From: Acidobacteriota bacterium
GTDB taxonomy: Bacteria; Acidobacteriota; Vicinamibacteria; Vicinamibacterales; Fen-181
DNA length: 36,027 nt
Direction of reading: 5' to 3'
NCBI GenBank assembly: GCA_017883185.1
Contig: JADGOB010000027.1
Location: 1 to 36,027, forward strand
Below, in pieces: positions 1 through 6,202 of this stretch. The translations under genes were made by a program, and so were the position numbers. The stretch's first letter is position 1. Each line of letters starts with the position of its first letter. The notes below the pieces were generated by a model. It worked only from the letters and a program-made list of their open reading frames with translations, did no database searches and was not told the origin of the DNA.

Positions 1-2
1 CC

Positions 3-65
3 TACCAGCACTTCTACGACGCGTACTTCGGAGAGGGCCGGAGCATCTACACGACGGCCGCGTAG
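3..65 (+). CDS. C-terminal end of an unidentified protein (partial)
   Basis: An open frame enters from the left edge and ends at TAG 63-65. Only 20 residues are visible, ending in GRSIYTTAA; they are rich in Tyr and Phe. The stretch reads like the tail of a folded protein rather than random GC-rich sequence, but it is too short to assign to a family. The next plausible start is more than 140 bases downstream, so it is probably the last gene of its transcript. Confidence 0.45.
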   Translation, partial: YQHFYDAYFGEGRSIYTTAA

Positions 66-211
66 AACCCGCAAAGGCCCAGACCACGGTTCGTTCCGAC
101 CGACGTGGTGAAGACGTGAGACGGCGGCGGCGGAATTGCCGAGGGTTCCGTCTGACGAAGGCGCTTCGGCCAAGCGGCAGACCGCAGCACCGAACAGATG
201 ATAGCCAACCT

Positions 212-970
212 ATGCCTGACGAACGCTCCGGAGTGTCGGTCGTGAGGGATCACTGGCGGTCCTTCGTCGCTGCCACCGCTGGCTGGGCGATTGGCGTGAC
301 GATCAGCGTGGTGCTGTTTTCCTCCGACCGATGGGACGCCGTGCGGAAATGGTCTGAGTTCTACGTCCTTGCAGCCACGCTAATCGGGCTCTGGCGGTAC
401 ATCCACTGGACCGCAAAGAGCGTCCTCCTACAGAAAGCGAGCATAGATCGTCAGTCCCGCCCTTTACCTGTTGTGGAGCGCATCGAGCAGGAATCCCAAC
501 GCGCAAACGTCCACTTCTATGCTGCGAACATTGGCCCGGCGGGAGTTGCGACCAATGTGGCGCTGCTTGTGGAAACTGAACTGGACCAGCCTGCTGAGCA
601 GAAGGAGCCGCCGCAGAGAGTCTTCGCCAAATTCCTGCTGAATCCGCTGGGAAGTCAACAGCGGATGTTGTTGCCCGACAGGGCCGAGACGCCGTTTCGC
701 GATGGAGTCGAAGTGCTCTTTGCGTTGATTGGCGAGGGCGCAATCGCGGGCTCGGTGTTTCGGACATTCGGGGTCTACAGGGGCGGGGGAACGATGGGGG
801 TGCCGACGGTGCTGCGCCACGTTCACGACGAGGCGGCCTTCGTCGGTAACCTCGAAGACCACTTGGATCTTCATCACGAGGAGCTACACGGTCCCCTAGT
901 CGAATTGCGGGCGGACGTGCTTGAGCGCCAACGACGGCAGCCGCGATCCGACGGAAAGGGCCTCTCCTAG
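212..970 (+). CDS. hypothetical two-helix membrane protein
   Basis: I do not recognise this 252-residue protein. I chose the ATG at 212 because the frame upstream of it (from 116) encodes an Arg-rich stretch unlike a real N-terminus. Two hydrophobic segments lie near residues 15-33 (FVAATAGWAIGVTISVVLF) and 47-63, separated by a short charged loop. A soluble domain of about 180 residues follows. It contains FYAANIGPAGVATNVAL, which resembles the beta-sandwich repeats seen after paired helices in many uncharacterised membrane proteins. The last 40 residues are rich in Arg, His and Glu and look less protein-like, so a late frameshift is possible. No ribosome-binding site stands out. It has no functional link to the neighbouring broken nuclease gene that I can see. 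Confidence 0.5.
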   Translation: MPDERSGVSVVRDHWRSFVAATAGWAIGVTISVVLFSSDRWDAVRKWSEFYVLAATLIGLWRYIHWTAKSVLLQKASIDRQSRPLPVVERIEQESQRANVHFYAANIGPAGVATNVALLVETELDQPAEQKEPPQRVFAKFLLNPLGSQQRMLLPDRAETPFRDGVEVLFALIGEGAIAGSVFRTFGVYRGGGTMGVPTVLRHVHDEAAFVGNLEDHLDLHHEELHGPLVELRADVLERQRRQPRSDGKGLS

Positions 971-1171
971 TGGCTCCGGGGCCGTGGCTCGTGCTCAGTC
1001 AATCAGTATGGACCACACCCCTGTGTCGTAGGTAGTTGAAGCCCCCAAGGTGTCGGCAAACGCGCTGCGGACGGCATGTGAAGCAGACCGGTTGGCCGCC
1101 GAACCCCCTTATCCACCAGGTAGGCTGTGGTCGCCGAATGTCGGTTCTGCCCTGACGAAGGGACGTGCGAC

Positions 1172-1835
1172 ATGATCCTGAATGATCTGTTGCTCAACAA
1201 GGGCATCGATCCACAGACGGTGTTGGTATTCCGCCATCGACATCACGAGCCGCAACTCAACAAGGTGCTTCCGTGGCTGGCTGCCGAGCAACCAGAGGTA
1301 TTCAACGCCTACCAGCAGACGCAGGGAGAGAAGGCCGAAAAGGCGATGTCTGCGGCCTCCTACGTCGCGTCATTCATCGGGCACGCGGCTGGAAAGGCGC
1401 TGTTCATCGGGTTGTACTCAATCGGCGCGTCGAGACCCCTGACACGCGCGGAATACCGGCAGGTTCCGGCCCACATTGAGTTGGAGAAGTTTGGCGCGAG
1501 AGGATTCACCGCGGATGACCCTCGCTCATCTGTTCTCTGGTTCGACCTCGCGCCGACACCGTTTCACGCTGAGTGGAAGGGCAAACTCATTGTGGACTGG
1601 CGGCTACGTGGGGACCGCTTACGGTGGCAACAACCTCCTCGGCCGATGGCTGAACTACACAGCCTCGGGGTACGGGGGGAATAGCCTGCTCCGCCAGCGT
1701 GATCCCCGACACTTCCGATTCAGCATCCTGCAGCGGGTGTCGCCGGATATGCACGCCGACGACGTGATCCGGCTGGAGGGAACATGGAAGGACCGTCTCC
1801 ACGCGCGGCAGCCGTACGGCCTGAACGAGAACTGA
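1172..1835 (+). pseudogene. GIY-YIG nuclease family gene with an internal frameshifting deletion
   Basis: Two reading frames together look like one GIY-YIG family protein. The first part (ATG 1172 to about 1598) starts MILNDLLLNKGIDPQ and includes LPWLAAEQPEVFNAYQQTQ and ALFIGLYSIGAS. It ends with WFDLAPTPFHAEWKGKLIVDW. The second part (about 1599-1835, in another frame) starts GGYVGTAYGGNNLLGRW and ends with DVIRLEGTWKDRLHARQPYG. It carries the YVG half of the motif and a Glu-containing helix. From memory of the family, roughly 60-70 residues that normally sit between the halves, including the GIY half of the motif, are absent. The frames meet near 1598-1602. Both halves keep good family wording, so the damage is recent or is an assembly error. 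An upstream in-frame ATG at 1127 precedes residues that do not fit the family. Confidence 0.75.
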
Positions 1836-1850
1836 GGTGGGGACTTGTGG

Positions 1851-1870
1851 TGAGCGGAGCGAGCCGCTCA
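1851..1870. other. short perfect hairpin after the broken nuclease gene
   Basis: TGAGCGG and CCGCTCA (1851-1857 and 1864-1870) form a 7-bp stem around the loop AGCGAG. It sits 15 bases after the stop of the nuclease pseudogene and 10 bases before the tandem array. There is no T-tract, so it would be at best a weak terminator for the upstream gene. Confidence 0.35.
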
Positions 1871-1880
1871 ATGCGCGGGC

Positions 1881-2190
1881 CCTCATCGCCAGTTCCGACC
1901 CCTCATCGTCAGCACCGACTCTTCATCGTCAGTTCCGACCCCTCATCGTCAGCACCGACTCTTCATCGTCAGCACCGACTCTTCATCGTCAGCACCGACC
2001 CTTCATCGTCAGCACCGACCCTTCATCGTCAGCACCGACCCTTCATCGTCAGCACCGACCCTTCATCGTCAGCACCGACTCTTCATCGTCAGCACCGACC
2101 CTTCATCGTCAGTTCCGACCCTTCATCGCCAGTTCCGACCCTTCATCGTCAGCACCGACCCTTCATCGTCAGTTCCGATCCTTCATCGTC
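1881..2190. repeat. tandem array of fifteen 20-bp units plus a partial unit
   Basis: Fifteen consecutive 20-bp units fill 1881-2180, followed by the first 10 bases of a sixteenth. The plus-strand unit is CTTCATCGTCAGCACCGACC. The variable positions are base 2 (C or T), base 9 (T or C), bases 13-14 (CA or TT), base 19 (C, or T in the last full unit) and base 20 (C or T). The units are contiguous with no spacers, so this is not a CRISPR array. The last full unit and the partial unit overlap the stop and final codons of the histidine kinase on the minus strand. Read on that strand, every unit repeats a version of those codons including the TGA. Long open frames across the array on the plus strand are artefacts of the repetition. 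Confidence 0.97.
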
Positions 2191-5100
2191 GCGACAGGAA
2201 GCGTGAGCGTCACGCACGTGCCCCGGCCGTGTTCACTCGCGACGGCAATCGTTCCGCCATTCAGCTCGACGTTTCGCCGCGCGATCGAGAGGCCAAGGCC
2301 GGTCCCGACGGCCTTGGTGGAGAAGTACGGCTCGAACAGCCGTCGAAGGGCCTCGTCGTCCATTCCAACACCTGTATCCGTCAGCGTCAGTTCCACCGAG
2401 GCGCCCTCGATCTGCCGGGCGGCTATCGTCACCCTGCCCCCGCCGGGCATCGCGTGCAGCGCGTTGTCGATGATGTTGGTCAGGGCGCGGCCGATCAGCG
2501 TGCGGTCGATGAGCAGCTTTGGGATCCTGGCGTCGATCTCCCGCGCGAACAGCCATCGGTCGCTGGCCCCGGCCTCGTAGGGTCGGACCACCTCGTCCAC
2601 TAGTTCGGGAAGATCCGCGGGCGCGAGCCGCGCGCTCGGTGACGAAGCGAAGCTGGAGAACTCGGATGCAATCTGGCGAAGCAGGCGGACCTGCGAAAGG
2701 ATCGAATCAACGCATCCTTCGAGAACCGGTCCGAGCGGCTTGCCGCGGTCGGCGTGGACACGCCGGAGATGCTCCGCGGACAGCTGGATGGGTGTGAGCG
2801 GATTCTTGATGTCGTGCGCGACCTGTCGCGCCATCTCGGCCCATGCCTCGAGACGGTGCGTGCGCTCGAGTTCCCCCCGCTGACGGAGGAGTTCGGCCGA
2901 CATCCGGTTGAACGCTTCGACCAGCCGCCGCAGTTCGTCTGACGAGGTCGCGGCCACCCGGGCGTCGAAATCGCCCCGGGCGATCCGTCGGGTCGCGCGC
3001 GTGAGGCGGTTGACCGGATCGGCAATGCGCTCGGCCATCGGATATCCAACCGCCGCGCCGATCAGGATGAACAACATGGCCGCGAGCACGATGCGGCGGT
3101 TCAAGTCGTCGATCTCGCGCTCGATCTCCTGTTGCCGGAGGGTCAACGGTACCGTGAGGATGGCATCCCGGTCCGCGGCCCTGAGCGGGGCGGCGGCCAC
3201 CATGTATCGGAACCCGGCCGCCTGTTCCTCGGCGATCACGAGTGGCATCCGGTCGAGCACGATCGCTCGATACACGTCGGCGGGGGTGCGGGCGGGGAGG
3301 AGTCCCGAGGCGAACAGGTCGCGCTCGCTCGTGGCCTGCAGCCGCGCGCCGCTGAAGATGTTGACGTCCTGGCCGACCACCCGGCTCAGCCCGACCATCG
3401 CGTCGTCGCTGAGCGTCGCCCGGGGTTGTACCCGGTAGTCCTCGATGATCTGGCGAGCGATCACCGTCGTCTTGTGGGCTGCGGATTCGACGTCGTGGCG
3501 GAGGCGATCGGCGATGTAGACCCTGGTCACGAGGGCCAGGGTGACGACCGGGATCACCGAGGCCGCGACAAACGCCAGGAACAGCTTGCGGTAAAAACTC
3601 TCGCGGATCTCGCGGAGAAACGCGCGGCCCGAGCGGATCCGCCGTGCGCCAATCGCTTGGAAGAGCGCGGCGCCCGACAGGATGCCGAAATAGGCGAGCG
3701 CCACGAGCACGGTCAGTTCGGCCAGGTTGATGAAGTGGCCGATCGGCGGGATCAGCGGGTAGCCCAGCGCGTAGAACCCGGAGCGGTCGTTCTCGATGTA
3801 CACGTGGTAGTCCACGCCTCCGAGGCTCAACCGTGTCCAGAACGGCCGGCGCGAGTCATAGATTCTTCCGAACAGGCCGTCGTCGATCGGCCAGGCGCTG
3901 TTGCCCGACACGTAGAGCGGTGTCCGGCTCCACCCGTAGACGACGAACTCGATGTCCCGACCGCGCAACTCCTCGCGGCGACTCGCCGATTGCCCGCGTA
4001 GCAGTTCCAGGTACGGGTTCTGGGACGAGATGAAGGACATCGTGCTGTTGTCGAGGATCACGTGAATAACGATCGTCCCGAGTACGCTGCCGTCTCGGCC
4101 GCAGACATTGCGTCCGGCGTGCAGCAACTGCCGTTCGTGCGAGCCGAACTGGCTGATCTGGCCGAACGTTCGCCAGGAACAGCTATCCTCGCGCCAGAGC
4201 TGGGCGGTCGTTTCCTCCGGCAGATTGAGGGCGAACCGGCTGACGAGCATCTGGGCGCTGTTGTACAACTCGATGGCCGACGAGACCCGGTAGCGCTCGA
4301 GCGCCGTTCCCTGCCACATGAGGAAGGCGCTGTCGGTCCGGACGTTCGTGCCCGGCGCGGGCGCCGGCACTGACAGGTACGCCTGGAGCGCCGCCTCGCG
4401 CCCGTCGATTTCCGCCTGCGCGGCACGCAGGCGCATCTGGAGGCTCTCGCGCTGGTCGAGCACTTCCGGGCCGTAGTCCGTTTCGACGATCCGCCGCCGG
4501 GCCCCTTCTTCGAAGAACACCAGCGACGGATACATGACGGTCGCGGGCGCGAGCAGGGCGAAGAATGCCACCACTAGCCGGTACCCCTGCGAGGCGTGAC
4601 GCAGGCGGATCAGGCCGCGCGGGCCGAAGAGCGCGGCGGCCGCGATGGCGCCGACGATCAACAGCGCCTCGATGCGCGGGAGGTCACTGAGCAGTCCGCT
4701 CCATGCCCATGCCCAGACCGTGGCGACCGGCAGCCCCCAGGACAGCACCAACAACAGCGCGACGCGGAGATCGCCCTGCCGGGACCGCCAGCGCGCGAAG
4801 AGCAGCCGCCACGCGAGCACGAGCGCCCACGCGAGCGCCGCGTGGAAGCAGACAAGGCCGAGCGCCATCGTCATCCGGTCCGTTTGCCACGGGTGCGGCG
4901 AGAAATGGAGGATATCGACGGTCGATCGTCGGAACGTCTCGGCCAGGAACCGCTCGTAGCCGATGACGATCAGCGCGAGGGCGGCCCCGCCGGCGGCCTG
5001 CGACAGGAGAAACGCCCATGAAGGTCTACGGCCGTTCAACACGGCCTGCCGGTGGCCGCGATAGAGCTGGCGGCGGCGCTCGATCGCCCCGGCAACCAAC

Positions 5101-6149
5101 GCGACCACCGCGAGCGCGGCCAGGGCCGTCAGGAGGAAATCGGCCGGATGCCGCATGACGATGCCCAGACGCGGCCAGTGATACACGTCGGGAGACAGCA
5201 CGGGCGTTAGGCCCACCGGCAGGGCGAGTCCCAGGAGCAACCGTGCGAGGACGACGAGGCCGACGGCCACGGCGGTGGCTGTCAGGTAGGCACGCCGGGC
5301 GCGCGCCAGAGCCCGCCGGTCGAGGACCGGACCCACCAGCAGCAGCGTCGTCAACGCCAGCACGACGACTACGAGGCTGAGCACGACCTGGCGGTGCTCC
5401 TGACGCGCCCGGACCAGCGACGCCGGATCCACGCTCGCCTCCACGAGGAGCTCGCCGGACGGCGACCAGATCACGAAACTGAAAGGGCGGACGTGCTCGC
5501 CCGCGCCCTCGTATCGGGTCCGGAGCGAAACGGGAGCCAGGGACGTCTCGATGCTGAATCGCTCGGATGAGGCGTTGCCGACCGTGGCCTGTTCGGAGAA
5601 CAGGCGCTCGGCCGCAACCACACCGAGCCGGGTCGGTGTTCGACCACCTCCGGCATTGAGGGGTTGCAGTTTCACGAGCCGGAAACCGAGTGGACCCGGC
5701 GCGACGAACAGCGCGGCTGGGCCGGAAATCCGGTCGAATCCCTGCGCAACACCGCCGCGCTGTCCCCCGGTCAGCTCCGACGGCCGTCCCGCCCAGGCCA
5801 GGGGAGTGCCGTCAGCGGCGTACACGGTGATGGCCGACGGTTCCGAGACGTCGGTGCCGATCAACTGCGCTGCTCGCTGGAACAAGGGCCGAAGGTCGCG
5901 TTCTTCGGGAGGCTGGCGCAGGATCGGCTCGGCGGTGGCGGCGGCGGCCTGGGCCACGCGGCTGAGCGACGAGGACATCCGTTCGAATTGGGACCGCACG
6001 TCCTGCTCGACCCTCGAGTAGGCGGCTTGGGCATCGGCGCCAAGGCGGGCCCGCTCCGCGACCCAGCCGCCCGCGGCCACGAGGGCAGCGCACGCGAGGC
6101 CGAGGGAGGTGATCAGGAGAGCGCGCCGCCGCCGTAGGTCGAGACGCAT
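2169..6149 (-). CDS. large NtrY-like transmembrane sensor histidine kinase
   Basis: This 1326-residue membrane kinase should autophosphorylate and pass phosphate to a response regulator. A first helix (about 10-30) is followed by a roughly 220-residue extracytoplasmic region. A cluster of about eight hydrophobic segments follows (254-273, 290-310, 338-356, 380-397, 427-449, 462-480, 493-508, 523-541), then a second sensor region, further helices near 800 and 840, and a third small sensor region. The C-terminus is canonical: HAMP (IADPVNRLTRATRRIARGDF), H-box EMARQVAHDIKNPLTPI with His1112, N-box NIIDNALHAM, and G-boxes DTGVGMD and GTGLGLSIA. The H-box wording is NtrY-like, but NtrY proteins are usually near 750 residues; the extra length is the N-terminal helix cluster. 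No response regulator lies downstream, where a repeat array and a pseudogene are found instead. Its stop codon lies inside the repeat array. Confidence 0.9.
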   Translation of the reverse strand: MRLDLRRRRALLITSLGLACAALVAAGGWVAERARLGADAQAAYSRVEQDVRSQFERMSSSLSRVAQAAAATAEPILRQPPEERDLRPLFQRAAQLIGTDVSEPSAITVYAADGTPLAWAGRPSELTGGQRGGVAQGFDRISGPAALFVAPGPLGFRLVKLQPLNAGGGRTPTRLGVVAAERLFSEQATVGNASSERFSIETSLAPVSLRTRYEGAGEHVRPFSFVIWSPSGELLVEASVDPASLVRARQEHRQVVLSLVVVVLALTTLLLVGPVLDRRALARARRAYLTATAVAVGLVVLARLLLGLALPVGLTPVLSPDVYHWPRLGIVMRHPADFLLTALAALAVVALVAGAIERRRQLYRGHRQAVLNGRRPSWAFLLSQAAGGAALALIVIGYERFLAETFRRSTVDILHFSPHPWQTDRMTMALGLVCFHAALAWALVLAWRLLFARWRSRQGDLRVALLLVLSWGLPVATVWAWAWSGLLSDLPRIEALLIVGAIAAAALFGPRGLIRLRHASQGYRLVVAFFALLAPATVMYPSLVFFEEGARRRIVETDYGPEVLDQRESLQMRLRAAQAEIDGREAALQAYLSVPAPAPGTNVRTDSAFLMWQGTALERYRVSSAIELYNSAQMLVSRFALNLPEETTAQLWREDSCSWRTFGQISQFGSHERQLLHAGRNVCGRDGSVLGTIVIHVILDNSTMSFISSQNPYLELLRGQSASRREELRGRDIEFVVYGWSRTPLYVSGNSAWPIDDGLFGRIYDSRRPFWTRLSLGGVDYHVYIENDRSGFYALGYPLIPPIGHFINLAELTVLVALAYFGILSGAALFQAIGARRIRSGRAFLREIRESFYRKLFLAFVAASVIPVVTLALVTRVYIADRLRHDVESAAHKTTVIARQIIEDYRVQPRATLSDDAMVGLSRVVGQDVNIFSGARLQATSERDLFASGLLPARTPADVYRAIVLDRMPLVIAEEQAAGFRYMVAAAPLRAADRDAILTVPLTLRQQEIEREIDDLNRRIVLAAMLFILIGAAVGYPMAERIADPVNRLTRATRRIARGDFDARVAATSSDELRRLVEAFNRMSAELLRQRGELERTHRLEAWAEMARQVAHDIKNPLTPIQLSAEHLRRVHADRGKPLGPVLEGCVDSILSQVRLLRQIASEFSSFASSPSARLAPADLPELVDEVVRPYEAGASDRWLFAREIDARIPKLLIDRTLIGRALTNIIDNALHAMPGGGRVTIAARQIEGASVELTLTDTGVGMDDEALRRLFEPYFSTKAVGTGLGLSIARRNVELNGGTIAVASEHGRGTCVTLTLPVATMKDRN

Positions 6150-6202
6150 GTGATGAGGTCAGCATACGTCAGGAGGGAGGCGGAGAAAAGGGGTCGCTTC
6201 AG

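Follow-up and report, generated by a model that had tools for sequence, protein, structure and literature searches.

Loss of about 212 internal bases very probably disabled an anti-phage uzuA gene in an accessory stretch of an Acidobacteriota genome

The DNA analysed here (the window, 36,027 nucleotides from an Acidobacteriota genome) opens with an accessory stretch and continues into a conserved flank. The accessory stretch carries an open frame at positions 116-970 of the forward strand, for which Pfam, NCBIfam, PADLOC and PHROGs gave no family match at E 1, followed by a single UzuA-family gene at 1172-1835 that is split over two reading frames. An array in which a 20-base unit recurs in tandem about 15 times (1883-2190, forward strand) lies between this broken gene and a histidine kinase gene and marks the border of the accessory stretch. 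The kinase gene itself (2169-6149, reverse strand), with HAMP, HisKA and HATPase_c domains according to Pfam, forms the conserved flank.

Translation of both frames and comparison with relatives resolved the split gene into two halves. The N-terminal half comprises 143 codons in frame 2, from the ATG at 1172 to the TGG codon at 1598-1600 (1172-1600, forward strand). Its product ends in LIVDW and corresponds to a PUA/ASCH/YTH-like domain without its last strands. Past position 1600, the same frame adds 27 residues unlike the family before it reaches a stop at 1682-1684. The C-terminal half runs in frame 3 from the GGC codon at 1602 to the stop at 1833-1835 (1602-1835, forward strand; 77 codons and the stop), starts with GYVGTAYGG, ends with GLNEN and corresponds to a GIY-YIG domain minus its first, GIY-bearing strand. 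The junction (1598-1604, forward strand) is made up of the Trp codon at 1598-1600, the single base 1601 and the Gly codon at 1602-1604. A first-pass annotation of this DNA had reported a switch of frame from LIVDW to GGYVGTAYGG at 1598-1602, and indeed only one base separates the family-matching codons. The C frame holds TTG codons at 1476 and 1590, upstream of the junction, and neither of the remaining halves contains a further stop or frame change.

Both halves are well preserved. The residues of the N half are 56-66% identical to those of seven loci (the eighth locus is a fragment), and the best tblastn matches to a relative have E values of 2e-63 for the N half and 2e-40 for the C half. 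In the alignments, the C half keeps the YVG tyrosine and the Arg, Glu and Asn positions (GYVG, GRW, RLEGTW and GLNEN, within 1602-1832), whose catalytic role we assume from I-TevI and UvrC. The GIY strand with its tyrosine is absent from the window gene, and the equivalent residue, Y208 of the intact relative L005, is invariant in all 15 relatives.

The two halves match the PADLOC UzuA profile PDLC03973 in order and at complementary positions, the N half at 4-122 (E 2.1e-23) and the C half at 197-278 (E 3.1e-27), both far above chance level. Between them, about 74 profile positions have no counterpart in the window. L005, encoded in a draft Burkholderiales genome, aligns to this profile over 3-278 with an E value of 6.6e-78. 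Judged by sequence, the window gene is a broken copy of UzuA and no working member of the family. Neither Pfam nor NCBIfam yielded anything above threshold for the halves (GIY-YIG in the C half reached 14.1 bits against a threshold of 22.6), while PHROGs gave one match of unknown function for the C half (E 1.1e-5) and a chance-level match for the N half (E 0.23). Uzume is a single-protein defence system, and UzuA is listed by PADLOC as an anti-phage family. The earlier proposal that a defence or mobile function had been lost therefore holds in its first part; nothing was seen that pointed to a mobile function. Passages of the literature call the mechanism of Uzume unknown or poorly understood, and we found no publication pairing Uzume with GIY-YIG.

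To define what is missing, we compared the distance between the two points flanking the junction with the distance between the homologous points in 10 relatives. These are 210, 212, 213 (six times), 216 and 219 bases apart, the 212-base spacing belonging to a relative, L006, that is itself frame-shifted within the segment; in the window, the distance is 1. Relative to the commonest spacing, about 212 bases, some quarter of the gene's length, are absent from the window gene, a number that is not a multiple of three and hence changes the frame, even though the exact original length of the segment cannot be known. In an alignment of 15 relatives (L006 was left out and L022, whose start is cut by a contig end, was included), all 15 carry 70-74 residues and the GIY tyrosine between the two points. 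The first-pass annotation had described the GIY segment and the preceding linker as gone from between preserved flanks, which agrees with the presence of the segment in 15 of 15 relatives and with the E values of the two halves. It had also named full-length homologues without the segment as what would refute it: we found none among the 15 aligned relatives, and each of the 26 plasmid records with a coverage of at least 80% of an intact relative matches as one unbroken piece.

A search of the source genome for the missing middle piece returned nothing at match level (best E 0.66), and no second uzuA copy or paralogue was found there. When the 40 bases on each side of one breakpoint were compared with those around the other in nine relatives, exact matches reached at most 5-7 bases in length, and 0-3 bases in the register of the junction. 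The window gene differs at 3 of the 61 positions that are invariant in the other 11 sequences; intact relatives (n=11), when treated likewise, differ at 0-6 of 58-64 invariant positions. A programmed frameshift was ruled out because the segment itself is absent, and not the frame alone.

We then turned to a structural model of L005. Built from 15 sequences, it has a mean pLDDT of 90.6 and a pTM of 0.80, and replaces a first model with a pLDDT of 72.9. The I-TevI catalytic domain (1ln0) aligns with residues 203-294 at a Z-score of 12.0 and 1.6 Å over 85 residues; by sequence, the GIY-YIG domain matches I-TevI with an E value of 4.4e-5. The N-terminal part (residues ~1-176) matches the sensing domain of CMoRE (9u75; Z 6.9, 3.6 Å, 119 residues), YTH domains (Z up to 6.2) and ASCH domains (Z up to 6.1), all of them tied and within a range, Z 5-7, that is common by the tool's own warning. 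Among the 50 matches listed, those to the N-terminal part are CMoRE, 2p5d (whose title names no fold) and otherwise YTH domains or their proteins, ASCH domains and the DUF55 domain of THYN1. We take DUF55 to be the same as EVE. Foldseek returned THYN1 as the best N-terminal match (E 0.045); for neither model did it give a match at E 0.001 or better, the best for the second model being 1ln0 at 1.8e-3. The first, poorer model was matched by CMoRE only through the nuclease domain of the latter. PMC7641849 places the YTH, ASCH and DUF55 folds in or near the PUA/ASCH superfamily.

Three structures of the CMoRE sensing domain (9u75, 9u7u and 9u7z) rank beside the YTH and ASCH domains among the N-terminal matches of UzuA. 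According to PMC12923530, searches by sequence or by structure had found no homologues for the sensing domain of CMoRE. Its appearance here next to YTH and ASCH, at modest scores, hints at a fold common to all three.

Mapped onto L005, the deletion covers residues 147-217. In the model, this region takes in two strands of the first domain (154-156 and 163-167), the linker with two helices (187-191 and 195-201) and the GIY-bearing strand 205-212; the following strand with the second tyrosine (217-223, YVG) stays nearly whole. As the loss thus reaches into both domains, the damage goes beyond the active site. The missing part is as the first-pass annotation had described it, extended by the final strands of the N-terminal domain.

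The genomic setting was examined in four congeners. With window positions 1-6200 as the query, no match covering 1-1879 was among the matches listed for these genomes, from 40 candidate places each, and the frame at 116-970 was likewise missing from the matches listed (40 candidates per genome scored). Profile searches found uzuA in none of the four congeners and in neither of two further members of the genus's family (completeness 77-100%). The DNA of the kinase-gene flank is 97% identical in one congener, G297, and 73% identical in another, G300. In G300, pssA lies directly before the kinase gene with no insert. In G297, which is 97% identical over 2015-6200, the order is pssA, repeat units, an RHS-like piece, a repeat array and then the kinase gene. 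In G299 and G298, the matching DNA starts within the kinase gene, at or close to the beginning of a contig, which leaves the pssA-kinase junction covered in G297 and G300 only. In the source genome, pssA (NCBIfam TIGR00473, above cut-off) is found on contig C388. Downstream of it lie about two repeat units and a DDE_5 transposase frame that the contig end interrupts (L075 1-1100). The ends of contigs C388 and C50 do not overlap. The simplest reading, which we infer from the gene order in the congeners, is that a single accessory insert separates pssA from the kinase gene and that the window would contain its right part. The comparison with congeners also bears out the earlier description of this place as an accessory edge. 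The assembly is a draft of 395 contigs with the window starting at a contig end, and the broken gene is linked to the kinase gene across an array built of repeats dispersed in the genome, so this link could be a misjoin.

Two side observations concern the pssA region. The stretch downstream of pssA on C388 has only a 34-base match elsewhere in the genome among 40 of 115 candidates. In G297 (contig C161, L054 1219-1490), the RHS-repeat match scores 20.7 against a Pfam threshold of 22 bits and lies between 20-base repeat arrays in opposite orientations.

The 20-base repeat forms a family of its own. At up to two mismatches, it has 86 matches in the source genome, 70 in G297 and 0-2 in the three other congeners, two of which hold more diverged copies. 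Besides window 1883-2190, repeat loci are L065, L076-L080 and L086-L105. Among 26 arrays of at least three units, located in 25 stretches of the source genome, 15 begin near the 3' end of an open reading frame of at least 100 codons in a fixed antisense orientation and one in the opposite orientation. For the 17 arrays that were unseen when this orientation rule was formed, the counts are 10 antisense and none opposite. The stop codon of the kinase gene lies within the window array.

In a sample of the phylum (396 genomes, the source genome included), the UzuA profile matched 18 genomes at 20 places. Nine of these are full or nearly full copies, one of them (G112) with its start cut by a contig end, and two are the halves of the window gene. 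One copy (G290) breaks off at a contig end and also has a frameshift close to its 3' end, and three places hold C-terminal pieces only (G327, G381 and G333). The remaining five were set aside, four as weak (G243, G274, G275 and G364) and one (G253) as unconfirmed by tblastn with UzuA queries. The eight loci from a genome collection comprise six intact copies, one frame-shifted copy (L006) and one fragment (L008). Given the frame-shifted, fragmentary and partial copies elsewhere, broken uzuA genes are not rare and the window copy is an ordinary one. The frame change of L006 (3001-3875, from an Acidobacteriaceae draft genome) falls inside the same middle segment of UzuA. Phage records gave three distant matches, none over more than 80% of the query, and two viral contigs carry intact UzuA relatives.

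The neighbours of UzuA relatives were surveyed through 10 flanking proteins of seven loci. Four are defence-like (Mrr and an HsdS-like protein at L083, HNH_5 at L052 and DUF4231/SLATT at L004), one is a phosphopantetheinyl transferase outside defence (L009), one has only weak or sub-threshold matches (L002; DUF6884, DpdC) and four have no match.

Taken together, the comparison with relatives indicates that a uzuA gene beside the histidine kinase gene was disabled when it lost about 212 internal bases and with them its frame. For intact relatives, the prediction is an N-terminal domain of the PUA/ASCH/YTH type, a type known for reading modified bases, joined to a C-terminal GIY-YIG nuclease; the two would serve to cut modified phage DNA. 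What the deletion takes away is the end of the first domain, the linker and the strand that bears GIY and the invariant tyrosine. The N frame now encodes a truncated product of 170 residues, and any product of the downstream frame, lacking the first catalytic strand, would not be expected to have nuclease activity. The window gene very probably no longer works. The changes at invariant positions are within the range of intact relatives and no extra stop or frameshift has accumulated, which suggests that the loss is recent relative to protein change; this lends indirect support to the recent inactivation proposed in the first-pass annotation and, coming from the draft of one genome, gives no date. 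Overall, we regard this as ordinary gene decay at a spot of gene turnover.

A gene that is intact in the organism, with a gap introduced by assembly or sequencing, is an unlikely explanation. The draft state of the assembly, the position of the window at a contig end and the break of the same gene in another draft, that of L006, speak for it, but a collapse would need a repeat shared by the breakpoints, and the longest one found is 5-7 bases in nine relatives, or 0-3 in register. With no breakpoint repeat longer than 7 bases and no stray piece in the genome, repeat collapse in the assembly is improbable. Furthermore, no paralogue was found in the genome with which a chimera could have formed, and a loss of about 212 bases is too large for a slip of base calling.

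Still less probable is a natural two-piece variant that continues to work, for example as a free sensor domain and a separate small protein. Both halves are open and well conserved, and the C frame offers the two TTG codons before the junction. The lost part, however, includes strands from each domain as well as the GIY tyrosine that relatives never lack, the two-piece form is absent from all relatives examined, and the N frame closes with its 27 unrelated residues. A mobile element or programmed rearrangement, instead of a chance deletion, might be considered as the cause of the removal because a transposase frame and repeat arrays lie in or near the same insert, but this is hardly credible: no repeat of more than 7 bases is common to the breakpoints of the relatives, and the segment, which is coding in all 15 aligned relatives, was not found at any other place in the genome. 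Disablement of an anti-phage uzuA gene by one internal deletion with a change of frame is the reading that we hold with high confidence.

The broken copy is mainly of use for annotation, as one pseudogene in place of two hypothetical proteins. The confident model of intact UzuA offers a testable mechanism, a reader of modified DNA coupled to a GIY-YIG cutter. From the model and by analogy, intact UzuA would recognise modified DNA and cleave it. It is conceivable, at somewhat less than even chances, that intact Uzume proteins are modification-dependent restriction enzymes similar to CMoRE with a reversed domain order, and that the source genome shows one of them shortly after it was switched off. 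If so, the recent switch-off would fit a cost of keeping the enzyme when matching phages are absent.

Compared with known systems, the window gene resembles UzuA of Uzume (PDLC03973) in that its halves match the N- and C-terminal parts of the profile in order, and differs from it by the loss of about 74 profile positions and of a single uninterrupted frame. With I-TevI (1ln0), the L005 model shares the GIY-YIG fold (Z 12.0), whereas the window gene is without the first strand of this fold. I-TevI is a homing endonuclease and its other domains are different. The EVE-GIY-YIG fusions, which PMC7641849 lists beside predicted type IV restriction enzymes, also join a predicted modified-base reader of the PUA/ASCH superfamily to a GIY-YIG nuclease, although the tied CMoRE, YTH and ASCH matches do not single out the N-terminal domain of UzuA as EVE proper. 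Finally, CMoRE (PD-T4-3) is described in PMC12923530 as a shown type IV GIY-YIG restriction enzyme. Its GIYxY motif is absent from all 15 UzuA relatives, where the second residue after the GIY tyrosine is I, V or L, no match to it was found by sequence at E 5, and the nuclease of the window gene is, unlike that of CMoRE, broken. The L005 model combines a GIY-YIG nuclease with a domain that resembles the CMoRE sensor at a modest score, in reverse order: according to PMC12923530, CMoRE carries its nuclease at the N-terminus and its sensor at the C-terminus, while in L005 the sensor-like domain comes first.
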